DNA from: Owenia fusiformis
Lineage: Eukaryota; Annelida; Polychaeta; Sabellida; Oweniidae
Length of the DNA stretch: 64,000 nt
Reading direction: 5' to 3'
Assembly (NCBI GenBank): GCA_903813345.2
Contig: CAIIXF020000008.1
Coordinates: 31,150,867 to 31,214,866, forward strand
The notes under the pieces were generated by a model. It did no database searches, had not been told where the DNA came from, and saw only the letters and a program-made list of their open reading frames with translations. Position numbers and translations under genes: made by a program. Each line of letters starts with the position of its first letter. The first letter of the stretch is position 1. Shown here piece by piece: positions 10,719 through 51,107 of this stretch.

Positions 10719-10882
10719 CCGGTGTGAAAAAAGTTATGGTCCCCCGGGGATTATGGTCCCCCTTCTTAACGGCCCTTACTGGCCCTGATTGTGTATAAGA
10801 TAATAAGGGAAAGAGGTCACCATATAAATTAATGTAAAGTAGGACCATAAATTGATAGGACCTCCTACCCGTTTACACCGGG
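10719..10882 (-). mobile_element. MITE, copy 1 of the CCGGTGTAAA family
   Basis: The termini are inverted CCGGTGTGAAA and CCGGTGTAAAC. The body is closely similar to the copy at 23108-23273 along its whole length, in the same orientation as Six4/5. It begins 20 bases downstream of the Six4/5 splice donor. Translation read past that donor runs into the element, which explains the non-homeobox tail of the apparent open frame. No transposase is encoded. Confidence 0.85.
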
Positions 10883-10902
10883 TCCCTTTGGGTTCTACAT
10901 AC

Positions 10903-11669
10903 CTTCGACAATGCTGTTGGTGAGGTGTTCGGTCTCTCTGTCGTCTATTTTTGAACCAGTTGCTGACTTGTGTTAGAGTTAACCCCGTTTTCTTTGCCAA
11001 ATTCCGTTTTTCGTCCGGGGTGGGATATCTGTTTTGCTTGTAACAGTCTTTCAAAGCTTGTCTCGACTTTTCTTTGAAGCAATACACTGTTTCTTCTCCG
11101 TCCCAGATCGTTTTGGGCAGGGGATATTTCCTTCGGAGACGATATTTATCCACCGCACCTAAAGGTCGACCTCTGATTTTTTGAGCTTCTAAGTAATGAG
11201 CTTTGTACCACATTTGCTGTAGCATTGGGTGGTTTAAGGTATCAAAGTTATGACTTTCTAAAATTGCGTAAAGTTCTCTGAAGCTACCACGATGGAATGC
11301 GACTGTTGCTCGGGCCTTCAAGACGGCCTCGCTCCCGCGAAGGAGCTCACTGGGCGGGAGAGACCACAAGAATCTTGCTAAACGATCAATGTTAGCACTT
11401 TGTTGCAACGCCTCGCAAACACACGCAACTTGTTCCGGAGAAAATGTCAAATTTTTACCCGATAAGAGATCAGCGACATTTGGTGTCTGCATAACTTCAG
11501 TGTTTTTCGTTCCGTTCTCTGCCTTGTTCACGTTCTCTTTCGTGTTATCAAAAGCATTTCCGTCATCGCTGGAGTTCGAAGAATTATCATTCGGATTATC
11601 TAAATCAGTAATGCTGTTTAGACAGTTTATAGGGCTCCTATTTTCCTCATCGTCAGCTCGGCTCGCCAT
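10903..11669 (-). CDS. Six4/5: Six4/5-class homeobox transcription factor, exon 1
   Basis: This exon encodes 255 residues plus two bases. Residues 1-70 are a Ser/Asn/Asp-rich leader. The SIX protein-interaction domain is about 74-187, with [19 protein letters not shown] and [19 protein letters not shown]. The homeodomain is about 191-250 and includes [11 protein letters not shown] and [10 protein letters not shown] with Lys50. The [10 protein letters not shown] and KQNRYP wording fits the Six4/5 subfamily rather than Six1/2 or Six3/6. Family members are nuclear regulators acting with Eya cofactors in muscle, sensory and pharyngeal development. The start ATG has G at -3 and +4. The exon ends at a strong donor, CGAAG|GTATGT. 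The frame stays open to 10776, but those residues come from a MITE in the intron. Later exons are uncertain. Confidence 0.95.
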
Positions 11670-12060
11670 GGCTGTATTTAAAAGCCGTAGTGTCAGATTT
11701 GTTGTATGTTACCTGTGGATCCGATGAACACAATCACTAGGAAGCTTGTTCGTCGCCACAGGACCTACTTTGACATAAGATATCTTACATATGGAACGCA
11801 ATGTGCGTCTTTTGACATGTGCCCGAGAGCCAGCTTGGGGGAAAATAAATGTTTTACTCGATCTGGTAGCAATATACTCGGCGAAGTGCTCGAAGGTACT
11901 AGAGGCTTGAATCCTGATGCGCTGATTGGCTGGAGGAATGATATTACACTTGACAATGCCACCGCTTTGTTAATAGCTACTGATAATGTTTCCATTGGCT
12001 TGAATTCCAATCGGGTCCTTGTGTTAATCACACCTTTTCTGTTTAGAATTTGAATAAAGT
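11670..12060 (-). promoter_or_regulatory. Putative Six4/5 promoter region
   Basis: This is the 390 bases upstream of the Six4/5 start. It has more CG dinucleotides than its surroundings. Two inverted CCAAT boxes (ATTGG on plus) lie at 11925-11929 and 11994-11998. A TTTTAAATA sequence sits only about 6-14 bases before the ATG, too close to be a TATA box for this start. Open frames on both strands here (11706-12053 plus, 11765-12031 minus) show no known domain. Confidence 0.3.
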
Positions 12061-18000: not shown

Positions 18001-21000
18001 TTCTGAAACTGTTTTAAATACTTAATATTTTCCAGGTAACTGCTTTACAAAATTATTGTGCATTGTGAATCTTCATTATCTAATTGATAAATATTTTCCT
18101 CAGCAAACTTTATTTTCATAGAACACATGATGAATCTTTTATTCAACATTCTCAATTTTGCATCAATTATGTTTCAAGAATTTTTATCCCTGGCTCACAA
18201 TGAAGGACATTTAAATAAGTCATGGGAAAGTAGGTCACAAGAAAGAGGAGCACTGGGTTCCACCCATTCCAATGATGCAGGTTTTGTGCTAATTTTGAAT
18301 ATCTTTATGGTACTTTTACAGGTAATGGGCTAATGGCTTTAGCAAATTGCAGCAATGTCATAGTTAGTTTTTTTGGTCAAAGTAGGTTGCTAAATCACTA
18401 AAGAGAAATCATGAATCTTATATCATAAATGTGTTTTAAATCAACTTGTTTACCTGAAAATAAAATGTGGTCACAGCTTTGTGGTCACAGCTTTTCTGAT
18501 GCTGATGTACCCGAATGGTGTCTAATTCATAATGTAATAAATGAAATCATTGTGGTATGTATGTGGAGTCTAGTTGCCTTATAATAATACATTTACTTTA
18601 GTACATGGATTCTCTCCTAATATAATATTATTTCCTTATAAATATCCAAACTTTAATCAAAAGCAGTTTCAAAATTATCGTATATTGTATTTCACCTATA
18701 ATATCGTATATGGTATAAGAGCTGTGAAAAATATTGTATATGGTGAAAAAATATTGTATATGGTATAAGAGAGCTGAAAAATATTGTATATGCATTTCCA
18801 AGACCCTCTATACACCCCCCCCCCATTATACCAATATGGCCCAGTATATGCTACCGCACAATTAACTCCAACATGATTATCATTATCAGAATCCTTCGTG
18901 GAAAATTGTTGACCGTTCGACCATTTCATAGAATGACCTGCTGTACCACTATAACTATCAATAGTTAATCTGTATTTGTCTGTCTCATCACTAATATTAA
19001 AGGTGTTGTATTCAGCATATCGTGTCTCATTCTCCCATGTTGTGAGTTCAAACCTGACCTTGTACCTCTTCTGTTGCAACACAGACACAATATTGTCCAG
19101 TCCAACGAAGTGTTCTTTCTTAACATCACCGAAGCCATGTTTATAAGCTGCCCACTCCAGGTTAAAGTCGACACTCCCATCATAGCGGTATGCAAGAATA
19201 AGCCAACCAGCTTCACACTTTGCAAGAAACCATCTACCGGTGCTGGTGGTAATGTTATGAACACCATCTGATTGTCCATTGCAATCGCCTGCTACAGGAA
19301 TCTCTTCGTTGTTAGGTTGTTCTAGAAATAGTAAAGAATGTACTTGATACAGTATATGCTGGAAAGGTTTGAAACAGGATTTGGTCTGTAAGAAGCTGGG
19401 ATAAGAATACTACTGTTGTACATTGCAAACTTCTACTGTAGGGATTTTATCAATCTGTTTTAGAAATAATGAAGAATGTGTCATAAGCTGGTCGGTTTGA
19501 AACAAAATTTGAACTCTTCTGTGCAATTATGTGAGACTTCATGGGTCTTTTTATGATACTATAGTAGAATTATACATGAACTTAATGGTTTATCTGTACC
19601 TTTATTTGTTTGATCATCTGGCCCTGTGCGGCATGTCTCTGCTAGCTAGTTTCTTCATTTCTTCTTTCATTTCATCAAGACCTCCTTTCAATGTTTCAAA
19701 AGACGTTGTGTTGCATTTTCCTGTTAGAAGGGACAACATTTTCAAAACATTAAGTGTTGCGGCTTATTTTATGGTTCATCTTACAGTTGAATAATTGCTA
19801 AATCATTATATTAATTAGACCATACATGTAATTAAATCAATCAAGCCGGAATGAAATAATTCATTTGAATGACGTCACACCCCTTCCCCTTTTCCAGTTC
19901 AACTTTTGCCAAATAACCTTCAAAATCGAATGATCACCCTATAATAAAGTTAAAACTTTAAATCGTCATAGAATGAGGAGTGTAAAATTGTTACAATTTA
20001 TAAAAATATCTTCACTTGTTTCTATTTTTCTAGTGGCTTCAAGTGAAAAATAAGCAAAAAACGTATTTAGAGGTAAAATACTATTAAGAAAAATACCTTG
20101 TGCAATAGCATCGTCAGTCGTTCCCAATTCATCATATTTGCAGCTCTTTAGTTGTTCTTTAATGACTTTAAACATCTCGGACGATTTATTACAAACTGTA
20201 AGTATAGTTACTTATATTATTGTACAATAATATGCAATAACTACTTTGTTTTACTCAAAACACTAATTACATTTACTTATTCATTTCAACGGGAACCTAG
20301 GCTACGACCGTATTATCCCACTGGCTGGTCAGGCCATATTTTTCTTTTAAATTGATTTGTAGTTTTCGCCATTTTAAAGCGAGTCATGGCTCATTTGAAA
20401 GGTCTCTTTGTGCTTTTTAAGAAAAACAAAAGATCAAAACATTGAAATAATCAGTGATAAGACCCATTTTCCTGTGGCCTGGTTCTTATATTGAAATCGA
20501 CATTTACGGTTGGCCATTCTAAAGAGAATGTAACGATAACGGCCGTCAACTCTTTCTGTTACTGACCAGCGAATAAGTAATGTAAATGAGCATTCCTTTG
20601 ATAAATGTACACGTGTCTTATAAGTGCATATGTCTGACAAGTTAATTTTTGTGTGAATAAGTATTTGCATGATAGCAATGAATGTCAGTAAGAATGTGAG
20701 TAGATGAATGATTAATTTAGGTAAGTATATTTACAATTACATAAAAACTCATTACATAATACAAAGCATAACACAACACCAAAGCCAAAAATATAGAAAC
20801 AGTCTTTGCAGCATGACATAACATAAGAAGGGTGTTCATCTTATATATTATCAGATCAATATTAGTCAAAACGAATAATGCATGTTATTAATTGTAAATG
20901 TAATTATCTAGGAATAGAAAAAGAAAATATATGTCTGACAAGATTCTTACCTTCAGAATCAACTGGAACGTAACTGTTATCTTGGTGGAAGCCTTTCAAT

Positions 21001-23674: not shown

Positions 23675-26600
23675 ATGGGGAATACACAAGGCGGCACACA
23701 AAAACGACATTCCTCTGGGGATGACACCGCACCGTCAATGTTGGGCATCGGAGGAGAGGATGATTCATTTACCCGGAGAAACCGCATAATTTACCAGCCT
23801 CCGTCACTTGATGATCAAGATACATTATCACCAGGAGTTCTTACGGTAAAAAACATTGTACCTCAATATTTTCTTGATTGGTGAAAAACTGTTCAGTGTC
23901 CTAGTTCTGTCTGATATAAAAATGCACAGCAAACCACAGTAACTTATATCTCATCTGAGTATCCTAGTTCAACGTCGGTTAAACTCAATAACGGCATTCT
24001 TTACCATTAGGAATTATCTTGGCCGTTATTGAGTTTAACCTCCTTACTATTCTTTCCTTAGTCGCAAGTTCTGTGTCCATCGAAACCACTTTTCCTCAAT
24101 AAAATGCAACTGATACTTGACAATAATATAAAAACACATAGCATCAAGCGATTTAACACAATATTGTGTTAAATGTTCATTTATACTTGTAAAATGTGGC
24201 TACACTTACCCCCGGGGGGATCACTGTATATAAAACTCGACGGGGGTCCTAGGCTGAAGCCTCAAATATCAATAAGTTCCCATACCAATCTGTCAAATTT
24301 CAATATGTTCCCATACCAACCAAAATAACGCCCAAAGGGCATACCAAATGTCCAAATATAGGACCAATGCCATACCAAATGCCCAATTATAGGACCAATG
24401 CCATACCAAATGTCAAAATGTAGGACCAATGCCATACCAAATGTCCAAATATGGGACCAATGGGATCACGAAAAATCTCGCGAAACTTCATCAAAGCCTA
24501 TGATTGGTCCTCATTTCCCGGGAAAAGGGATAAAATTCAAATGTTGAAGGCCCTGGAAAAGAAAATACTTCGGGAAACGATCCAAAACAACTTCACATTT
24601 GCAACTACTGGACCAATGCCATACCACGAAAGTTAGGTAACGTATCTACAGCGACCATTCTCATACCAGAAGAGCAAAAGTCCGACCATTGCCATACCTC
24701 AGAAGTCAGAAATTTCCGGGCATTCCCATACCAAATCCTAAAATATGGGTCCATTGCCATACCAAACGTTGAAAAAGGTACCCCACATGCGCCGAGGATC
24801 CCCGTCAAGGTTTATATATAGTGAGTCCCCCGGGCACTTACCATTTTCTAAAATGACATGTCCCTCATTGTGTCTGTTCGTCCCCGTTAAAATTAAACTA
24901 TAGTGAAAAGAAATTGTTGTCAAATAGATTGATAATTATTATTGCGCATACTAGGGATAATACAATCAATTTTGAGGATAACAGATATCTTTGATTGATT
25001 TATATTGCACTTGTATACACATAGAATAGTTATTTATTGCAAACATGGTGCAGTGCCGCAATGACGGTTAACTTCTGATAAGATTTGCAATTTCGATGTT
25101 ACCAGAACTGACCGAAATTTTCGTTAATTCCAAACCTGTCTCTAATTTTTTCGTAATTAGCATCAATAAGGTCTTAATAGTGGAGATACGGGATGGTGTG
25201 AATTTATTCATAAGGTCTGTATGTATGATTAGATTACTTCTTTATGTAATATTACCATGTTTTTAGGGTTTAATTAGTTCTGCTTGTCTTAACAAGCGGA
25301 ACTATTAACTTTACGCACTTATGCCAAAATGACATTGGAGGTAAGACCTAGCCGGGGCCACAAGACATGTCGATAAAAAACGAGGCCCTAGGCTAGGTCT
25401 AATGTTGTAGGACTACTGAGTATCCTTGATCTGGTAAAGGCACGTTGTGCCTTGGAGACATTGAAATGATTCAAAAATCCTTTTCTGCTTTTAGACATGA
25501 TTGGATGGTTTGAAACCTTCTCTGATGATTTTATTTTCGAGATATGCATGAAGGTCTGTTTAGACTGAGGATTGAAAGTTATTTACAATCATTTTCACCT
25601 TATCTTTATTTCTATGAGCTGGAAGTGAATTTTCTTGTTGAGAAAATGCTGATAATGTTATTTTTATGTAACAGGGAAGTCAGAATGTTTCTTATAGAAA
25701 TCAAAGTAATCATTTCAAGATTATTAAGAAGCGTTTAAAATCTTATCAAAAGAAGAATTGAAATAAGTAAATCAGTTATGTATTACTGGCACAGAACACA
25801 CATCTGGTTTAGATTTTATTTATCCAAAAATATGTTAATTATGTGCTCGATATCTGCTTAAAGGGATATTTGTTACAATCCCATTTCTCTCTTGATAAAG
25901 TAGCTAATCCATTTTATGTACTATCTATATACTCGCTAAATCTTGCTCGCTAAATATCCAATTTTTAAGAAAGAGTGTAATAATATACCTAGAAAAGAGT
26001 ATTGGGGATAGCATTGAATAAAATGCATGAAAATCAGAAGATTCATTGACCTAGTTTTTTTTTATTTTTTAATGCACGTAATTGCCAATAAAAATATTTT
26101 TTATTTCTATTTACATGTCATATTTTTAGTCACAATCAAAGTTCACCCTATTACTTTCATTTCTTTTACTGGAAATTGTTAAAATTTGTACAAAAATAGC
26201 ATTTCTAAAAGTTGACCTTTAAATAACCCAGATTTCAAGGTCAAAATGTCAAAAATCTCAGAAATCACATTTTTAGTTGTAAGTTATACTTCCGCTTCAA
26301 TTCCACACCCATTTGTGCTTGTTTTCTAGGGGGGCTTAAAGGAGCCCTCACTGCCACCTGTCATTTGTCTGACTGAAGGGTAATTGGCCCAGGTTCCGGG
26401 GTAAATCATGCAATTAACAAGCTGGCTTGACATTCATTTCATTCATCTCAGATATGTAAACATGTTTATTCCAGGTACGTTTTCATGTTGTTAAGGTAGT
26501 GCCTGCCATACATTCACAGAAAATATGGAAAATTTCATTTTTAAAGCCTCAGAATGATGTTGAAATTCAACTGTCAACAATTTGCCTTTGAAAATTTGTG

Positions 26601-29600
26601 TCCTTATAGAATAATCACCGAACTGGCAGAAAGTAATTGAATGTTCATGTATCATTAGATGACTTAAGTACACTGCAGGGTGGTCCAAAAAAAAGTGAAC
26701 CCTTACAGCAAGTTTTATCTCACTTATAACTTGCACTACGGGTTAATATTCTCACATGTTTTAGAGGGAGGTCTAAAGTTTTTGTGGGTACCATAAAGGT
26801 CTTGCAAAAGTTACATGGCATCCAGAGCTCTCCTTAAGGCAAAATTACTCACAGGACCAACAGACTGACAGGTTGGAAGAGTTCACCTGTCCAGACCAAA
26901 AGTAGCCAGTCCCTGAACTCACTAATTTGGACCACCCTGTATAATAAACTGATGTTAAAACATGCCGTCTCTGTTTTGCAATTCTATTATGTCCCCATAA
27001 TCACAATGTGATTGATAAAGATCGAAAGATAAAATGAGAAGTATATCAGTTTGAAAATTCATTTTTGACCTTGCCTTATTTTCCTGATATGTGAACTTTG
27101 GGCTGAAAAATCAAAAAGTCACATGTAGTTTGTACTTGTAGTTTGTATGCATCTATGTCTTCCAGGCTATGGAGATCAGCGATGCTGACTTTGAACCATT
27201 TGCCAGGCCCAGAGCAAGCACAATCACATCCCACGCTGATATTCAACCCACAAAGCTTCCCACAGTTTTCAAGTGGGAGGGAGGGGGCAAGGACGTTTAT
27301 CTCTCTGGAAGTTACGATGGCTGGAAAACTAAAATTCCGATGGTTAAGAGGTCAGTGTATTACACATAACATCATGTGGCGAGTTCAAGGATACTAATTT
27401 ACTGTGAACGAACCCAGCATTGTGGTATTTTTGAAGAGGATTAATTTATACTAAATATTTAAACATGCATACAATATATGTATATTTCAACTGAATATTT
27501 TGTCTCCCTGGTAGAGTCAAATATTGGTGTAGTATTTTTTCACATAATTAATTATGATTGGGGGTTGATTTCAACACTGATTGTGTTATATCTCACATTT
27601 ATTATGTGTTTCAGTCACGGGGATTTCTACCAGATTCTTGAACTGCCCGAAGGTGACCATCAGTACAAGTTCTATGTTGATGGCGCTTGGAAGCATGACA
27701 ACACAAGGGTATGTTTCAAAATTGAGCCTGTCTTATGTCAAATATAGCCTCTGTAAATTACATGTAGTTTGTCATGTCATGTATAACCTATCGTATATCT
27801 CTTACATCAGATATTTTGTAATTTTTTGGGCTGGATGTTATGTTCACCAAATACTACTCGTGATTAAAATTTTATTACTATTTCATTGTTATTTTTACAT
27901 GTACAATACTTATATGACATCAATCTCCTCAGCATTGAAGTAACTTCTTACCACATCTAGTTGGGGCAATTAATATCATTGAAATCGTAAACTTCAAGAA
28001 ATTAAGAATTTTGCACCAACTGGAGGAGAAATCCTGGCGAGATTGCTGTATAAGTACAGGGGTCTATAGGCAAAACAAATTATAACTGGAAAAATCTTTG
28101 GGAATTTTAACATTGAAAAAGTTGCTAAATTCCACGAACAAGAATAAATGTTGGTGAGCAAACCAGGAAAAATCACTCATTGCCTGCCGCTGATGAAACC
28201 CCTGTATAAACATTTTTCGTTGTTGGTTGTGGGATAACATTTTGTCGTATATGTATAATCTCTTTCAGCCATTAATTCCCAATAACCTTGGCAGCCATAA
28301 CAACCTTATAAACGTAAAGCAGTCAGATTTTGAAGTTTTCGAGGCTCTTGCAGTGGACAGTAGTGCAGCTGAAAAAAAGATGAGTAAGTTACACAATGAG
28401 ATACTTGCATATGCCATCGTTCGTAAATATTAATTTAGAGCACTGTGTTTTGGTTTAACGGAAGAGAATCTGGTATGATAGATTCACCTTATGAAGAGAA
28501 AATACAGACTTGCAAAAAAAAATTATAATGGAATTTTTTCGACATTTTCTTTTTTGCTACAACTTTCCTCTTTTTGTTGAAAATATTGGAGCAGAAATAA
28601 TTGAGATCAAAGATCTGGAGATTAAATAATAATCTGATGATGCAAAGAAACAAAACTTCAATGTGCTCTAGAATTGATATTTTCGAGACTCTTTGTGCTT
28701 TTTTGAGTGTGATTGTTTACATTTTGGTTTGTTTTGATTTGATGCAGCGGACAATTCCAAATGATCTTGGATCTACGAATAATATTGTAACGGTCACACC
28801 ATCAGATTTTGAGGTATTTGAAGCCTTAAATACTGACTGTGAGACAGTTAAAACAAGTAAGTTAGACATTAGGAAATGCATGTTCGTACAAAATTGAGGT
28901 TTTGGCATTTCTTGGGAGGACTTGGGCTTGAAATGCATCTTTGTTATGAATCACAACTTTTCGTGAGGCTTCTCATGGTGTGAAGAAATATAATTTAAAG
29001 GTAGATAAATGTTACAATAGCTATGGCATTGTGGGTAATATCATCCCTTGGAAATATGCAGAACTGTAGGTGCTAGGGTAATGTCATCCTTTGGTATGAA
29101 AGACCCCCACTAATCTTGAAGTTGAATTTAATGTGCTTTCAAATCTAAATATGGTGGAGATTTGTTGTTCGTAAATTTTCGCGGGTCCTAACTTCCTTTG
29201 TTGTTTGTTAGGGGATTGTGGGTATTTTTGAAGAATCGTTACATTTTGTCATCAACGTATTTCCCAAACACTTAAAATGTTCATGATCAGTATAAAAAAC
29301 GTTAAATATATTAGTATGATTTGAATCATCCTTAGGATTAAGAATATGAATCTTTTTGGGCACCCCGATCACCCAGTTAACTATGTGGACCATTCATCCA
29401 TAACATATACATATGTCTTTATGTGAAGAAAGATGTCCATAAACTGTGGCAATGTTTATAGGTATCAAATGATTAAATCATAAAGATTTACAACTTGCTA
29501 GATATGGCACATATCAAACCCTGATTTAAGTTTTATATCTAAATCCCTTTAGTTATTATGAAGAACTCCGATCATTTTCAAATGCATTTTCATTTAGTAG

Positions 29601-32600
29601 GACTTGTATAGATGGCAGTTCAATAGTTGTTGTTACTTCGCCATCTTTTGTCAGTCCTGATGTCAAAGAAGAAATAAAATATCCACAGTAAAGCTTCCAT
29701 TTTGAAATGATCTGAAAATCTATCTAGGTGTTTTATTATTATAATACATATATGTATTGTATTTAATGCTTGATGATTTATTTAATTATTTTATTTTCGT
29801 AGCATCATCTTCCCGAGAACGAGAGAGTAAGTATTCTGTTCACCAGGTGGCGCTTCACTTTCTCACTGATGCTACTATTCCCGAATTCCTTGTGTCGTCA
29901 TTGGTCATGTTAAAAATTATGAATGTAAAAATGCATGAAAAAAGCAGTGATTTCCCCAGGATTTTTTCTCAGGTGGGTGTAAAATTCTCATTTTCCAATT
30001 CAGACCAAAATTATGCCAATTTTTCATGATTTTTCTCATTTTCATGTGGGTGCAAATGGGTTTTCAGGTGGGTGCAAGCCTATTTTCAAAATCTAAGGTG
30101 GGTGCTGCGCCCACTTGCTTTAATGCTGGGGAGATCACTGAAGCAAGAACATTACAATTTCCAGATGTAAAGTAAATACAATATTTTATTCCATGATGGT
30201 GAAATTCCCTGCAATCTGATTGGTCCATGTGACTTAAATATATCCTGTATTTACACGCACCTTCCACTTAGCATTGGATACAGAGTGAAAATGACGTCAG
30301 CGTTGGGATACGGTCCAGTATCCCAAAGCCCCAGATTTCCATCCAGGATATGACTATTACTGAAAAAATCAATGGCGATCTGTTTATATTTGCTAATATT
30401 TGCATTTTGCTAGAAATATCTGATTTGAATATCAGGAAATGATACGGTGATCACCACAATTTATTATTTTAGGATAAAAAACACTCATCTGTAATTATAA
30501 AAAAATCAGTATGAAGCGTGCATATTGTTTTCATGAACTAGTAAAAATCCAATATGGCAGACGAAAGTCGAAAAAACGTTTCGTTACACTGTTCCAGCTG
30601 ATGAAATTGAAGAAAAATGTTGAAGAAAATCAAACGTATCGTATAATACAATAAATGCAAAACAACAAGGCTGAAAAGATTTTGAAGGAATATCGATGTA
30701 AAATATTTTTGAGGTGAGAAGGTTGATCTGTTTCTCCGGTCCCAAGCCAAGGAAATGGACTTGATTTAGGGGAGTTTTATCTGAGTAATCATGGAATAAA
30801 AACGTTATTCAATGATTTCTTGTGAAATACAGAAAATATTCTTCCCTTGAACGTCTGTATTTCACTCTGCTAGCGCATCGTGAAATACGACCTTCTCGGG
30901 AAGAATATTTTCTGTATTTCGCTTGAATCATTGAATAACTTATAATATTAAATATAAAACTACAATAAACCCAGTTTCATTGAAACATAACAGAGAAATT
31001 AAGTAAAACCAACATGACCTTGATGACCTTTCCTTGAGCTGCAACTATGCGCTTTAAAGTGGCACTGGCTCCTATACTGCAAATCATCATTGGAATACGT
31101 TGGATGTACATTATTACATGCCTTTAAGGTTTATACATTCTGTTATGAAGCCCATTTTCAGTGAATACTGCCAAAGTGATGGATTATCACTATGGAATTC
31201 AGTTCAGTTTAGAATAAATATCATTTCTACATCTTTGGTTGTAGGTGCAAAACTATTGAGAACTTTTTATAGATTTTGAGGAGTTGAATTTTTATATATT
31301 GTTTTCGTGGAACAAATGTTAACAGAATCACAACTTTTTTTGATTTTCATCATTTATTTTGGATGAAATGATAAAAGACAGTGCCCCTTTAAGTTATTAT
31401 TATTTTCTGTTAAGTTATTTAATGGCACATCACCCTTTAAAACATAGAAGTACAATAAAGTAATGCAAAATCTGTATGCATTATCATTTTCCCAAGAGTA
31501 GATAACAGGAAATATATGATTCTTATGCAATTTTTGAATGAGTATTGGTAAATATTTCATTTTAGTGCCAACTCGAGTGATATGAAATCAGTTGTGTATT
31601 TTTTAGCCAATCAGAATTCTTGAATTCAAGCTAGGGTATAATAATATTTTATGGCAGACAAAAATTCACAAATGAGGGAAAATATACTGCACAATAAATT
31701 TTAACAAGTTAAAGTTAACAATAATAATAATATCTATAAAATTAATAGGAGGCCCCCCGTTGGGGCCTCCTAATTAAGAGGAAGATAATGAAAAAATAGA
31801 TAAGGCTCATAGAAGATACGAAAGTTGGTCTTTGAGCCTCTTTTAGAGTATACACCTTCTATCTTTCATCTGAGTAATTTTCTGAAACTTCTTGGTCTTT
31901 CCTCTAAACTTTTCTAATAAAGTCCGATACAGTCTGATCTGCACTCTAAAATCCTGAAGTAAAGCATTGTATGATTGGTGATTGTGAAAGAAGATACAAA
32001 AGTTGGACTTTGAGCCTCTTAGATTATAGACCTATCTTTCATCTGAGTAATTTCTGAAACTTTTGGGTCTTTCCACCAAACTTTTCTAATTAAGTCCGAT
32101 ACAGTCTGATATGCACTCTAAAATCCTGAAGTAAAGCATTGTATAATTGGTGATGGTGAAAAAAGATAAGGCTCATAGAAAATACGCAAGTTGGACTTTG
32201 AACCATTTAGATTATAGACCTTCTATCTTTCATCTGAGTAATTTTCTGAAACTTCTGGGTCTTTCCACCAAACTTTATTAAGTCTGATACAACCTGATCT
32301 GCACTCTGAGATCATGGTACACTACCATTGGTTATTAAGTAACTTATGGTACCATTGCCAATAAAATAATGTATGGTAGCATTTGTGATAAAATATTGTA
32401 TGATACCATTGGTGATGGTGTGTCATATGGTACCATTGGTAAAGTGTTTATTGTACCATTGGTGATAATGTATTGTATGATACCATTGTTGATAAAGTAT
32501 TTTATGATACCATCCGTGATACTGTTTCTTGTGGTACCATTGATGATAATGTATTGTATTATTGTATGTATTGTATGGTAACATTGACAATAAAGTATTG

Positions 32601-34021
32601 TAGGGGTGCCATTCAAATTGCTTCATATCTGGCTAGCTCAATGCACATTCCTTTAAATTGATCATCCTTATAGCATTTTGCTTCCATGGTTGAAATGGCA
32701 ATCATGACCAAAGGAAGGATATCTTTAAGAAATATGATGAGCTATAATTCTGCAGTTATTCTTATTTTAGAGTGACAACATTTTATGTTATTTAACAAAT
32801 AATCTACTGATACAATTGTGACGAAGTTAGTGCAAGTCATTTTTCTAAAGCTATTTAATAGCTTTCTATGTGCAATCAACTACATACTTTAAGCTGTAAC
32901 TATTTATAAAAAGCCTTTATATATTTAGTCAAATTTCTCGAGCCTGCTTTGATCTGCATGAGCGATTCCTTTGAAGCGCAAAATTGCTTTTTACAATTCT
33001 CAAGATGGAATAAATCAGTGGAATCAGCAAGGAATAAAGTAAATATACATGTAGTTAAACTAAACTACACTCATCTACTGTTGTAAAAGGTCATTCACTA
33101 CACTAGCTTGAGTTATGAATATTTTAGCAGAGCTCAATACTTCACCATTACCTCCTACAGTTCATCTTGAATGTTTTCAGCTCTCTCTGGCTCGCCCCCT
33201 GGGGACTACAATCAGATTATACCTCAGAGAAGACCGGATCACAAGCACACAGGACCCCCTATTCTACCCCCTCATCTACTGCAAGTTATACTGAATAAGG
33301 ATACACCTGCTCATGTGAGTTTTTCTAACATCATATTTTTGATATTTAGTTAGACATACAGTCATTTTGCAGTAATCTCCCCAGCATTAAAGCAAGCAAG
33401 TGGGAGCAGCACCCAACTGAGATTTTGAAAATAGCCTTGCACTCACCTGTAAATCCATTTGCACCCACTCGAAAATGAGAAAAATCATGAAAGATTACCA
33501 TATTTTGACCAATTTTGGTCTGTATTTTGAAAATGAGAATTTTGCACCTACCTGAGAAAAAATCCTTTTCGATTACATTCACTTTAATTTTTAATATTTC
33601 CATTAAAAGAGCTCTATCTATACAATACACTTTTACAATCTCTTTTTCCAGTGTGAACCTACACTCTTACCAGAGCCAAACCACGTCATGTTAAACCATT
33701 TATATGCTCTGTCTATCAAGGTAAGTTCAGTTATTAAACTGATATCATGCCACATTTGTTATTGAAAGTCACTAGATTATCTCTTTACTTTATAATGTAA
33801 TTTTTTATGAGCATGATCAGTAGGTCGCAATATTTTGCATCTTTTGGCCAAAATTAGATTAGCCTATCCCATTATTTTCCTTTACTTGCTATGGATAACT
33901 TATTGTGTATGATGTATTGAACTCTTGATCATTTGTGTTATAGGATGGTGTTATGGTCCTTAGTGCCACCCATAGATACAGGAAGAAATATGTCACAACT
34001 CTGCTTTACAAGCCAATTTAA
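23675..34021 (+). CDS. PRKAB: AMP-activated protein kinase beta subunit, complete gene
   Basis: Exons are 23675-23845, 27166-27350, 27615-27708, then 28269-28383 or 28748-28856, 29803-29826, 33181-33314, 33652-33720 and 33944-34021. All junctions are GT-AG with matching phases. The product is 289 or 287 residues (human beta1 270, beta2 272). It scaffolds the alpha and gamma subunits of the AMPK energy sensor. The start MGNTQGG fits N-myristoylation. The carbohydrate-binding module (about 88-166) keeps its glycogen contacts W110, K137, W144, L157 and N161. The C-terminal domain is nearly identical to vertebrates: PPILPPHLLQVILNKDT, LLPEPNHVMLNHLYALSIK and YVTTLLYKPI. Lys111 stands where vertebrates have the Ser108 autophosphorylation site. 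Introns carry several MITEs and minisatellites. Confidence 0.97.
24211..24834. mobile_element. Inverted-repeat transposon with 8 bp TSD and internal minisatellite
   Basis: It begins CCCGGGGGGATCACTGTATATAA and, read from the other end, CCCGGGGGACTCACTATATATAA. The inverted repeats are about 45 bp. It is flanked by identical CACTTACC at 24203-24210 and 24835-24842. The interior, about 24260-24780, is a tandem array of GGACCAATGCCATACCAAA units. An 8 bp duplication is typical of hAT-like elements. It lies in AMPK beta intron 1. Confidence 0.9.
25345..25401. repeat. Imperfect hairpin
   Basis: AGACCTAGCCGGGGCC pairs with GGCCCTAGGCTAGGTCT across a 24-base loop. It is probably a remnant of a small foldback element, in AMPK beta intron 1. 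Confidence 0.6.
26676..26939. mobile_element. MITE with CAGGGTGGTCCAAA termini
   Basis: The left end CAGGGTGGTCCAAAAA and the right end TTTGGACCACCCTG are inverted. The termini resemble mariner-type ends (CAGGGTGG). A TA follows the right end, but no clear TA precedes the left end. A related fragment, AGGGTGGCCCAAAAA, occurs near 35247. It is in AMPK beta intron 1 and non-coding. Confidence 0.7.
28269..28383 (+). CDS. AMPK beta exon 4a, first of two alternative exons
   Basis: Length is 115 bases, phase 0 to phase 1, between CTCTTTCAG and ATGA|GTAAGT. It encodes LIPNNLGSHNNLINV and SDFEVFEALAVD. This is the end of the carbohydrate-binding module, with the Leu and Asn that contact glycogen, plus the helix (FEVFEAL) that in vertebrate structures packs on the kinase C-helix. 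Confidence 0.95.
28748..28856 (+). CDS. AMPK beta exon 4b, second of two alternative exons
   Basis: Length is 109 bases, phase 0 to phase 1, between TTTGATGCAG and ACAA|GTAAGT. It encodes TIPNDLGSTNNIVTV and SDFEVFEALNTD, matching exon 4a at 19 of the first 30 residues. Joined after exon 4a it would be read out of frame and stop within six codons. It must therefore replace 4a, not follow it. Confidence 0.93.
29803..29826 (+). CDS. AMPK beta exon 5, 24-base microexon
   Basis: It has a T-rich tract and TTCGTAG before it and GAGA|GTAAGT after it, phase 1 to phase 1. With the flanking bases it adds the eight residues TSSSRERE to the linker between the carbohydrate module and the C-terminal domain. 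Skipping it keeps the frame, so it may be a cassette exon. Confidence 0.7.
29945..30140 (+). mobile_element. MITE of the CAGTGATTTCCCCAG family, copy A
   Basis: The ends CAGTGATTTCCCCAG and CTGGGGAGATCACTG are inverted. The body has AGGTGGGTGCAA repeats. The copy at 33370-33577 is similar but in the opposite orientation. It lies in AMPK beta intron 5. Confidence 0.85.
30804..30939. mobile_element. Foldback MITE with GTTATTCAATGATT termini
   Basis: GTTATTCAATGATT at the left pairs with AATCATTGAATAAC at the right. Further in, GAAATACAGAAAATATTCTTCCC pairs with its complement at 30899-30925. The loop is short. It is in AMPK beta intron 5. The foldback at 48518-48659 has similar termini. Confidence 0.85.
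31743..31777. repeat. GC-rich hairpin
   Basis: TTAATAGGAGGCCCC pairs with GGGGCCTCCTAATTAA around a short loop. It resembles a strong stem in the AMPK beta pre-mRNA, intron 5; its function is unknown. Confidence 0.6.
31783..32330. repeat. Tandem repeat of about 180 bp, three copies
   Basis: Each copy contains AAGTTGG.CTTTGA, ATCTTTCATCTGAGTAA and AAGTC(C/T)GATAC segments. They start at about 31790, 31985 and 32156. The array runs directly into the next minisatellite. It lies in AMPK beta intron 5. Confidence 0.85.
32331..32605. repeat. Minisatellite of about 28-30 bp
   Basis: Degenerate copies of GTATGATACCATTGGTGATAA. Open frames on both strands here are repeat artefacts. Confidence 0.85.
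33370..33577 (-). mobile_element. MITE of the CAGTGATTTCCCCAG family, copy B
   Basis: It is an inverted copy of the element at 29945-30140. It starts CAGTAATCTCCCCAGC and contains AAAATGAGAAAAATCATG and TTTTGCACC. The far end is degenerate. It lies in AMPK beta intron 6, so the two copies flank exon 6 in opposite orientations. Confidence 0.8.
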
Positions 34022-45348: not shown

Positions 45349-46785
45349 TCATATATGTTCTACAGATTGTGGAGGAACATACACGTTTCTTGTACTAGAT
45401 TCCTGAGAACTAACGCTTCTACATTTGAACATTTCGAAGAGACTACTTCTAAATTTGCTTCCAGCAAATACGTAAAGCCAGAAGTTGACGCTGTAGTTTA
45501 TGTACAACATCCACACAAATACTACCGCATACTTTTCTGCAAACATCTGGTTTTCAATGGTTTTATCCATGAATTCTACCCAGACATTAAAGACAGTGAC
45601 GGGCATTGTACTTATGCAAAGAACAGCGCTTACCGCTATAAGCATCAGTGCCATGGAGTTGGTGGTCCTCTTCTGAGCCGCTGTCAGTTCTCCTGTCATC
45701 ATGGACATACGCTTCCTCTGTTGTTTGAATACAACATTGATTATGATGATGTTACAGATGACGACTACGCTCAAGGGTATGAAGCTCAGCATGATTAAGT
45801 CCTGCCATACAAAATAAATACTCGCATAGTGGATGAAATCTGGGTTCCATGTGCAGTCGGTGAAATGGGCAGTATCTTCCGTGTAGGTAAATATCCAGCC
45901 AATTTGTAGATTCCAAGCGAGGAGAATCAGAAAGCTCAAGCTTAATGCTCCTACTACCTTTTGTTTGGTACACAATGACTGTGCTCTGTGGGGTAGTCCT
46001 ACTGCAATACAGCGCTCAATTGAAATCACGGCAACGATCCAGCTAGAGAAATCAGTCATAACATACATTACGGTCATCCCAATCTTGCATGGCCAGTATC
46101 CAAGGTCTGGCAACAAAACGTGGCTCAGACCAAACCCTATTTTCAAAGTCAACCCAAGACCAGAAATAAGCAAGTTGAATAAATCTGTCACTGCTAACAC
46201 TGTAAGTGCCAGGGCTGTTGGAGAGCTTCTCAAATGTTCTCCACGAAACACAAGTATGGATAAAATGTTACTTGGAACTCCCAATGCAATCAGGATTGTT
46301 CCACCATATTTCCAAAGTTCTACTTTCAACGATGTGTTGAGTTGTTGAGTTGTTGCGTCAATCGTTGTATCATTTAGTTTCTCTATCGCATTGCGTTCAT
46401 CATTGATTTTTCTGTCATATGAATCAGTCCCATCATTGAGTTCTTGAGTCACAAATGGCGCTGTGCTAGTTACAGCCAATGCTGTATCAGATGAAAAGGA
46501 TGCAGACCCTGTGTCAGTTATAGTCAACATTTCATCACTTGAAAGGGATGCAGACGCTTTTGTTACAGCCAATGCTGTATCAGTTGAAAAGGATGCAGAC
46601 GCTGTGTCAGTTACAGTCAACGCCGTATCAGTTGAAAAAGATGCACTGTCATCTCTAGATGCACTAAATATTGTTCCATTTATGTATTGTTGATTCACCG
46701 AGACGACCATGTCTAACACCACCCCAATGAGCAAGACAAACTGTAGCTGCATTTTCATTACGTTTTTCTCATAAAATGATATCAA
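45349..46785 (-). CDS. Rhodopsin-class (class A) GPCR with Ser/Thr-rich repeat stalk
   Basis: A single uninterrupted frame of 478 residues. The first ATG is used here, but Met10 or Met12 just before the hydrophobic leader QLQFVLLIGVVL may be the real start. Residues 45-107 are four degenerate repeats of SASFSTDTALAVT, followed by potential N-glycosylation sites. Seven membrane segments span about 160-445. Class A marks are N173 (1.50), D201 (2.50), the C233-C311 disulfide pair, E257-R258-C259 for DRY, P395 in TM6 and N434-F-W-L-Y438 for NPxxY. The overall wording suits peptide or orphan receptors expanded in invertebrates. The ligand cannot be named. The gene is intronless, like many such expansions, and sits between a nested transposon and a minisatellite. 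Confidence 0.93.
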   Translation of the reverse strand: MISFYEKNVMKMQLQFVLLIGVVLDMVVSVNQQYINGTIFSASRDDSASFSTDTALTVTDTASASFSTDTALAVTKASASLSSDEMLTITDTGSASFSSDTALAVTSTAPFVTQELNDGTDSYDRKINDERNAIEKLNDTTIDATTQQLNTSLKVELWKYGGTILIALGVPSNILSILVFRGEHLRSSPTALALTVLAVTDLFNLLISGLGLTLKIGFGLSHVLLPDLGYWPCKIGMTVMYVMTDFSSWIVAVISIERCIAVGLPHRAQSLCTKQKVVGALSLSFLILLAWNLQIGWIFTYTEDTAHFTDCTWNPDFIHYASIYFVWQDLIMLSFIPLSVVVICNIIIINVVFKQQRKRMSMMTGELTAAQKRTTNSMALMLIAVSAVLCISTMPVTVFNVWVEFMDKTIENQMFAEKYAVVFVWMLYINYSVNFWLYVFAGSKFRSSLFEMFKCRSVSSQESSTRNVYVPPQSVEHI

Positions 46786-49359: not shown

Positions 49360-51107
49360 AGAATATGTACTGATAAAGATACACACTGGTGAGAATATAT
49401 GCTGATGATACATATTTCATGTATTGTGAGAAATGTACTGATGAAGCTAGATGCGCACTGGTGAGAATGTGTACTTATGAGACACACTGAGAAAATGTAC
49501 TGATGAAGATACACACTAGTAAAAATATGTACTTAAGAAAGACACTGGAGAGAATATGTACAAAAGAAAATAGACACTGGTGAGAATATGTACTGATGAA
49601 GATAGACACTGGAGAGAATATGTACTGATGAAGATAGACACTGGAGAGAATATGTACAAATAGAAATTGACACTGGAGAGAATATGTACAAATGAAAATA
49701 GACACTGGAGAGAATATGTACTGATGGAGATAGACACTTGTGAGAATATGTACTGATGAAGATAGACACTTGTGAGAATATGTACTGATCAAGATAGACA
49801 CAGGAGAGAATATGTACTGATGAAGAAAGACACTGGAGAGAATACCGGTATGTACAAATGGAAATTGACACAGGAGAGAATATGTACAAATGAAAATAGA
49901 CACAGGAGAGAATATGTACTGATGAAGATATACACTGGTGAGAATATGTAAAGATGAAGATAGACACTGGTGAGAATGTGTACTTATGAGACACACTTTG
50001 AGAAAATGTACTGATGAAGATACACACTAGTAAAAATATGTACTTAAGAAAGACACTGGAGAGAATATGTACAAAAGAAAATAGACACTGGTGAGAATAT
50101 GTACTGATGAAGATAGACACTGGAGAGAATATGTACTGATGAAGATAGACACTGGAGAGAATATGTACAAATAGAAATTGACACTGGAGAGAATATGTAC
50201 AAATGAAAATAGACACTGGAGAGAATATGTACTGATGGAGATAGACACTTGTGAGAATATGTACTGATGAAGATAGACACTTGTGAGAATATGTACTGAT
50301 CAAGATAGACACAGGAGAGAATATGTACTGATGAAGAAAGACACTGGAGAGAATACCGGTATGTACAAATGGAAATTGACACAGGAGAGAATATGTACAA
50401 ATGAAAATAGACACAGGAGAGAATATGTACTGATGAAGATATACACTGGTGAGAATATGTAAAGATGAAGATAGACACTGGAGATAATATGTACTGATGG
50501 AGATAGACACTGGAGAGAATATGTACTGATGAAGATAGACACTGGAGAGAATATGTACACTGATTAAGATATACACTGGTGAGAATATGTACAGATGAAG
50601 ATAGACACTGGAGAGAATATGAATTATGAATATATGTGATGCACACAGTGAGATATAGTAGGTGAGTATATATATTGATAACGATGCATACTGGTGAGAA
50701 AATGGACTGAAACTATCATTCCTATTCAAAATTAACATTTAGTTTGTCAAGTTTACACATTTTATATGGCACTCAAGATTGAAGCCAGTGATTTCAATAA
50801 ATATTGATAGAGTTGTGTCAAATGTGGAAGCACATGGGTGTTTATTAAATCATTTAAAACAACAACAAAAGAAATTCTGTAATACACATTATATTTCCTT
50901 AATTGGTACTACGAGCCTTAACTCATACCATAGATTGCCATAATGTTTGATGTGGTAAGGTGATCATTTGTCATCTCGAAAAATAATTATTTTTCAAAAA
51001 ATGAGCCCATCCAAATAAAATACATGATCACCCCTTTACTATTCAAAGCTAGGATTTACCCAATTAAAATGTCAGTTAGCCTAGAACTTGGTTTACATGT
51101 ACATGTA

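Follow-up and report, generated by a model that had tools for sequence, protein, structure and literature searches.

Pairs of mutually exclusive exons are well known, and are described as exons that are adjacent, alike in sequence and length, and in the same reading frame (PMC5740500). Four routes to exclusivity have been described in mammals, namely steric hindrance, U2/U12 incompatibility, the action of regulators and mRNA surveillance (PMC3585155). Among the closest described systems, the C. elegans genes unc-32 (exons 7a/7b) and egl-15 (exons 5A/5B) use one of two exons under RBFOX control via UGCAUG; in unc-32 the element is located after the second exon and is needed for the choice of the first, and in egl-15 it is located upstream and represses 5B (PMC3585155). 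Human OGDH, a core energy-metabolism gene, carries the tandem alternative exons 4a and 4b, which change the regulation of its complex, and exclusivity is reached there via branch points located 25-41 nt past the 4a donor (PMC7969005).

The window analysed here, which is the whole 64 kb stretch of DNA, was found to contain a complete gene for the beta subunit of the energy sensor AMPK, with two exons that probably form such a pair and are also named 4a and 4b. They are adjacent, similar to each other and in the same frame, as set out for mutually exclusive pairs (PMC5740500). Like the exons of unc-32 and egl-15 they would form a one-of-two choice, and like those of OGDH they stand in tandem in a core energy-metabolism gene. 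We consider it likely that the exon for the last CBM strand and the alpha-C-interacting helix was duplicated in tandem long ago in the sole beta gene found in this genome, and that the copies are alternatively spliced to give two beta subunits, beta-4a and beta-4b. A swap between them leaves the residues that contact glycogen and the kinase in place but alters the hinge, the final CBM strand and the tail of the helix, and would most likely tune the coupling of the CBM to the kinase N-lobe, or the phosphosites of the linker.

The features of the gene are listed in Table 1. The putative first exon, predicted from its open frame, reads MGNTQGG..., an N-myristoylation-type start, and ends in phase 0; its candidate donor (ACG/gtaaaa at 23846) is weak, falling in the best 8% of the GTs of the window. 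The first codon of exon 6 is split with exon 4a, exon 4b or the candidate microexon.

Table 1. Coordinates of the AMPK beta gene, its exons and associated sequence elements in the window
Feature	Position	Strand	Description and basis
AMPK beta gene, complete	23675-34021	+	Exon limits set by splice sites and frame
Exon 1, coding part	23675..23845	+	Predicted: ATG-started open frame, joins exon 2 in frame
Exon 2	27166..27350	+	Splice sites, frame
Exon 3	27615..27708	+	CBM up to W133-K-H-D-N-T-R139 (human beta-1 numbering)
Exon 4a, 115 nt, PLIPNNLGSHNNLINVKQSDFEVFEALAVDSSAAEKKM	28269..28383	+	Last CBM strand and alpha-C-interacting helix
4a-4b intron, 364 nt	28384..28747	+	Exon coordinates
Exon 4b, 109 nt, RTIPNDLGSTNNIVTVTPSDFEVFEALNTDCETVKT	28748..28856	+	Alternative to 4a
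UGCAUG (RBFOX-type element)	28877..28882	+	21 nt past the end of exon 4b; sequence match
Candidate microexon, 24 nt	29803..29826	+	Phase 1-1; splice-site scoring
UGCAUG	29932..29937	+	106 nt past the candidate microexon
Exon 6	33181..33314	+	Linker (TLSGSPPG) and start of the alpha-gamma binding domain
Exon 7	33652..33720	+	C-terminal domain (AMPKBI)
Exon 8, coding part	33944..34021	+	Ends ...TTLLYKPI; stop at 34019-34021

A 172-nt tandem repeat of 2.8 copies is located in the large intron of the gene (31811-32307), with shorter repeats continuing to 32559. Several features were also found elsewhere in the window. On the minus strand, positions 10779-11708 hold an uninterrupted frame with a SIX domain and a homeodomain (PF16878, 1.1e-48; PF00046, 1.2e-14), the homeodomain being presumably of SIX4/5 type, and positions 18699-19409 hold a fibrinogen-related C-terminal domain (PF00147, 5.7e-37). 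A rhodopsin-family GPCR is encoded by one long frame at 45352-46785 of the same strand (PF00001, 7.9e-19), with an imperfect tandem repeat of 48/93-nt period at 46459-46645, ahead of the 7TM domain. Further on, a tandem array of about 39 copies of a 32-nt unit at 49360-50621 has long open frames on the minus strand.

Both isoform proteins, compared without exon 1 and without the candidate microexon, were found to match the AMPK beta-1/beta-2 chains of PDB, with best E values of 3.5e-86 (4a) and 4e-82 (4b). The Pfam domains AMPK1_CBM (PF16561; 5.4e-32 for the 4a isoform and 1.6e-31 for the 4b isoform) and AMPKBI (PF04739; 1.2e-29 and 1.3e-29) both scored over the cut-off, and the gene thus has the CBM and AMPKBI domains of an AMPK beta member. 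Whole-genome searches gave two matches to AMPK1_CBM, two to AMPKBI and seven to the full 4b protein, all of which were exons of this gene, and no second beta gene was found in the genome with these queries. The gene looks like the sole beta gene of the genome; the sensitivity of these searches was limited, as the 4b-protein query missed exon 4a and the AMPKBI query missed exon 6, and since the gene's own exons were missed, a diverged second beta gene could still exist. Animal AMPK beta was not found in the viral contig set (0 loci from 414 stretches), and the genome contig set gave 0 loci from 36 stretches with one protein and 17 from 143 with an alignment, all of the latter in contigs titled as bacterial MAGs and set aside.

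The two adjacent exons had been reported in the initial annotation, and their positions and lengths were reproduced here. As it had described, both join exon 3 between codons and end in phase 1, and both carry GTAAGT donors. Its description of the acceptors as good was generous: with simple weight matrices and all AGs of the window as background, the 4a acceptor falls in the best 5.9% and the 4b acceptor in the best 9.2%, and both score like those of the constitutive exons 3 (9.9%) and 6 (9.2%). With all GTs of the window as background, the 4b donor (best 0.6%) outscores the 4a donor (TGA/gtaagt; best 5.0%).

The first 30 residues of 4a and 4b are identical at 19 positions, SDFEVFEAL included, which agrees with the original count. 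Their alignment scores 93, whereas 5000 shuffles averaged 9.6 (sd 4.5) and never exceeded 33. Within the window each exon significantly matches one other place, the partner exon (E 9e-10 and 3e-8); the hits ranked next have E values of 0.74 and 0.36. No third copy was found in the window, and a genome search with the 4a peptide matched 4a and 4b alone (E <= 10; two candidates, both scored). Two haplotypes placed side by side, or a misjoin in the assembly, would also give a tandem arrangement, which is the one feature that fits such an artefact. Haplotypes, however, would be nearly identical, whereas 52 of the 90 aligned bases of 4a and 4b match, and their flanking stretches (the shared intron aside) have common pieces of 15-27 nt with E values of 0.04-0.5. 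The divergence of the exons and of their flanks points to an old duplication, and the chance of an assembly artefact is in our estimate negligible.

Conservation of the two exons differs by codon position, with identical bases in 21, 21 and 10 of the 30 codons at positions 1, 2 and 3, respectively; the NG86 method gave a dN of 0.36 and an undefined dS. In neutral simulations starting from 4a, with 4000 runs per distance d, none kept 19 or more of the 30 residues at d = 1, 1.5, 2 or 3. At d values of 1.5 and 2, which bracket the third-position identity observed between 4a and 4b, the simulated peptides kept on average 3.2 and 2.4 of the 30 residues, and a stop appeared in 69% and 74% of the runs. 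At d = 0.5, at least 19 of 30 residues were kept in 14 of 4000 runs, with third positions still alike at 19 of 30. In the pairwise test, and with the human proteins as outgroup, both exons were found to be under coding constraint. Near-saturated third positions together with a kept protein indicate an old duplication, and comparison of the sequences confirms 4a and 4b as an old tandem pair of which both copies are held by protein constraint.

Residues in common with human beta-1 and beta-2 number 17 and 18 of 30 for exon 4a, and 14 and 14 for exon 4b. At 16 of the 30 positions 4a and both human proteins have the same residue; 13 of these 16 are kept in 4b, and the three that are changed are 140 (P to R), 153 (I to V) and 156 (K to T). 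Conversely, all 13 positions common to 4b and both human betas also match 4a. With beta-1 as outgroup, one change is unique to 4a and four are unique to 4b (140, 153, 156 and 168), and with beta-2 as outgroup the numbers are none and four. Judged by this comparison, 4a is the conservative, vertebrate-like copy and 4b the divergent variant.

Taken alone, the pairwise comparison would be compatible with a recent decay of 4b, given its more numerous unique changes. Exon 4b might then be an old duplicate that was once used and is now silent in this species, its four departures, against one or none in 4a, being the trace of this decay. However, 4b has kept an open frame, intact GT/AG sites, a donor scoring above that of 4a, the same phases and the 13 shared positions, and we think it very unlikely that the exon is decaying.

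The two exons are tied to the reading frame of the gene. Exon 3 ends at a codon boundary and exon 6 starts in phase 1, and either 115 nt or 109 nt bridges the two. According to the initial annotation, joining both exons puts 4b out of frame with an early stop, and skipping both also shifts the frame; each of these statements held. When 4a is joined to 4b, the reading continues as T D N S K and the sixth codon is a stop, located 295 nt upstream of the last junction; as this stop sits inside 4b, no downstream exon is able to rescue the frame. Splicing exon 3 straight to exon 6 shifts the frame as well, and the resulting stop lies in exon 6, with 89 nt left to the last junction. Under the 50-nt rule commonly applied to NMD, the 4a-4b and 3-6 products are both predicted targets. 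A tandem duplication of which one exon would be usable per full-length protein is thus a well-supported reading, based on phase, frame, coding constraint and the finding of no second beta gene.

The early stop in the 4a-4b product, with its distance of 295 nt to the last junction, would suit unproductive splicing. In that case 4b, or the form that includes both exons, would mainly yield transcripts sensitive to NMD and so regulate how much beta subunit is made. Such a poison exon would not require its peptide to be kept, yet 4b retains 13 of the 16 shared positions while its third positions are saturated, and such a role is distinctly unlikely.

How exclusivity might be enforced was considered from the introns and splice sites. 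A distant branch point near the 4a donor is unsupported: exon 4b is preceded by an AG-exclusion zone of 38 nt, in an intron of 364 nt, which makes a branch point some 50 nt or less from the 4a donor unlikely and does not fit the arrangement of OGDH. As judged from the donors, U2/U12 incompatibility is unsupported too, none of the eight donors (gtaaaa, gtcagt, gtatgt, gtgagt, and gtaagt in 4a, 4b, the microexon and exon 7) being the U12 donor motif as generally known. In a search for competing RNA pairing, the strongest duplexes between introns did not exceed chance, with z values of -0.3, -0.4 and -1.2 against 40 dinucleotide shuffles each, in a test of whole-intron duplexes which a short specific pair could escape. 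With branch point, U12 donors and intron pairing all unsupported, trans-acting regulation and surveillance are left. Exclusivity would then come from a regulated choice of exon together with NMD of the double-inclusion and skipping products, and not from steric or U12 effects.

An RBFOX-type element, UGCAUG, was found just after exon 4b (Table 1). Others are located past the candidate microexon and 226 nt upstream of exon 6, and the 300 nt that follow each of exons 2, 3, 4a, 6, 7 and 8 contain none. There are 19 copies of TGCATG in the 64 kb, and one starts within the next 50 nt for 1.5% of sampled positions. The scan covered ten motif patterns, UGCAUG among them, and the other patterns matched too; the UGCAUG after 4b should be regarded as a lead and not as a result. 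In the genome, candidate RBFOX-like RRM pieces were found in order on one strand of C9. They top the 31 RRM matches, with 78%, 58% and 78% identity, and the best piece is 85% identical over 33 aa. Pfam Fox-1_C had no match in the genome, in a search whose controls matched nothing either. The UGCAUG 21 nt after 4b and the RBFOX-like exons in the genome together suggest RBFOX control of the choice between 4a and 4b, plus NMD, and RBFOX proteins would act via this element. A downstream UGCAUG commonly promotes the preceding exon, which would favour 4b here. The closest precedent, unc-32, speaks against so simple a rule: it is another gene, with the element likewise after the second exon but needed there for the first. 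Compared with egl-15, where 5B is repressed from an upstream element, the element of the AMPK beta gene lies after 4b and is a sequence match alone.

A second possible switch is the frame-neutral candidate microexon, which would add TSSSRERE to the linker of either isoform, beside SGSPPG (the region of human Ser182), and which could combine with 4a or 4b. Its acceptor ranks in the best 0.5% of the AGs and its GTAAGT donor in the best 2.8% of the GTs, the donor being weaker than those of exons 2, 3, 6 and 7 and better than that of 4a. On the plus strand of the window no other stretch of 6-60 nt has sites at least as strong, a length divisible by 3 and a frame open in phase, with the thresholds taken from the candidate itself.

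As to the function of the swap, exon 4 starts at residue 140 in human beta-1 numbering and does contain, as had been claimed, both the 146-150 sugar loop and the alpha-C-interacting helix. We take L146 and N150 to be the sugar contacts of the glycogen loop. The residue beta-T148 sits in the carbohydrate pocket (PMC7866021), and the alpha-C-interacting helix touches the kinase via Val162, Phe163 and Leu166, L166E giving less activation by compound 991 with AMP activation unaffected (PMC3905731). Exons 4a and 4b are the same at L146, Ser148 (Thr in human), N150, V162, F163 and L166, and the equivalents of W100 and W133 are located in the constant exons 2 and 3. The two copies differ in the last CBM strand, with H versus T at 149 and LIN versus IVT at 152-154, and in the hinge before the helix, which is K156-Q157 in 4a versus T156-P157 in 4b. 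Position 170 is Ser in 4a and Cys in 4b. Exon 4b is thus characterised by Pro157 beside the helix cap and by having neither Lys156 nor Ser170; in human beta-1, Ser170 is phosphorylated by ULK1 in vitro (PMC7866021). The mean helix cost of the tail is 0.33 for 4a and 0.59 for 4b, compared with 0.51 for human beta-1 and 0.41 for beta-2. As the beta-1 value is close to that of 4b, the 4a tail would be unusually helical rather than the 4b tail unusually poor, and the argument from the helix tail is weak.

The initial annotation had proposed that splicing toggles how AMPK senses glycogen or couples to the kinase, and the two halves of this proposal fared differently. If glycogen sensing itself were switched, 4a and 4b would differ in glycogen binding via the sugar-contact loop; the presence of this loop in exon 4, with beta-T148 in the carbohydrate pocket (PMC7866021), and the differences at residue 149 and strand 152-154 would be in keeping with it. 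However, since 4a and 4b do not differ at the contact residues 146, 148 and 150, and the W100 and W133 equivalents are constant, a glycogen switch is unsupported at the contacts and is on the whole rather unlikely. The coupling half may hold, as coupling could differ via the hinge at 156-157 and the tail from 167 onward. Most likely, the swap would affect how strongly the CBM is coupled to the kinase or how this coupling is regulated, or else the phosphorylation of the linker, and such effects are likelier than a glycogen switch.

The reading of an old duplication with two alternatively spliced copies can be extended, more tentatively, to an old exon switch for the hinge and the alpha-C-interacting helix that is controlled by RBFOX and lets tissues tune the clamp of the CBM on the kinase. 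The switch would be an exon-level counterpart of the vertebrate beta-1/beta-2 gene pair, with the linker microexon as a second switch and up to four isoforms. We hold this extended version to be possible, with the odds somewhat against it.

No AMPK beta exon pair was found to be described among the matches listed from the open-access literature, and the AMPK beta example would be new among pairs of this kind. Vertebrate PRKAB1 and PRKAB2 are not known to carry such an exon pair. Neither PRKAB nor AMPK occurs in the main text of PMC5740500. Drosophila SNF4A-gamma (loechrig) is likewise an invertebrate AMPK subunit with isoforms, of which one is neuronal (PMC3435293), but it is a gamma subunit, and no tandem homologous exon is seen in the part of that source consulted. 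Vertebrates have two beta proteins, beta-1 and beta-2 (PRKAB1 and PRKAB2), which differ in activator affinity, and the alpha-C-interacting helix is an element through which activators of the CBM-kinase interface act (PMC3905731). There, diversity comes from two genes and concerns the whole protein, whereas here it would come from one exon of one gene, and the animal can probably make two kinds of sensor from that gene. If this is true, an exon pair with constant contacts but a different hinge and tail would provide a natural experiment on the link between CBM docking and kinase activity. Beta diversity could then arise by splicing where one gene exists, with exon duplication doing the job of the vertebrate gene duplication.
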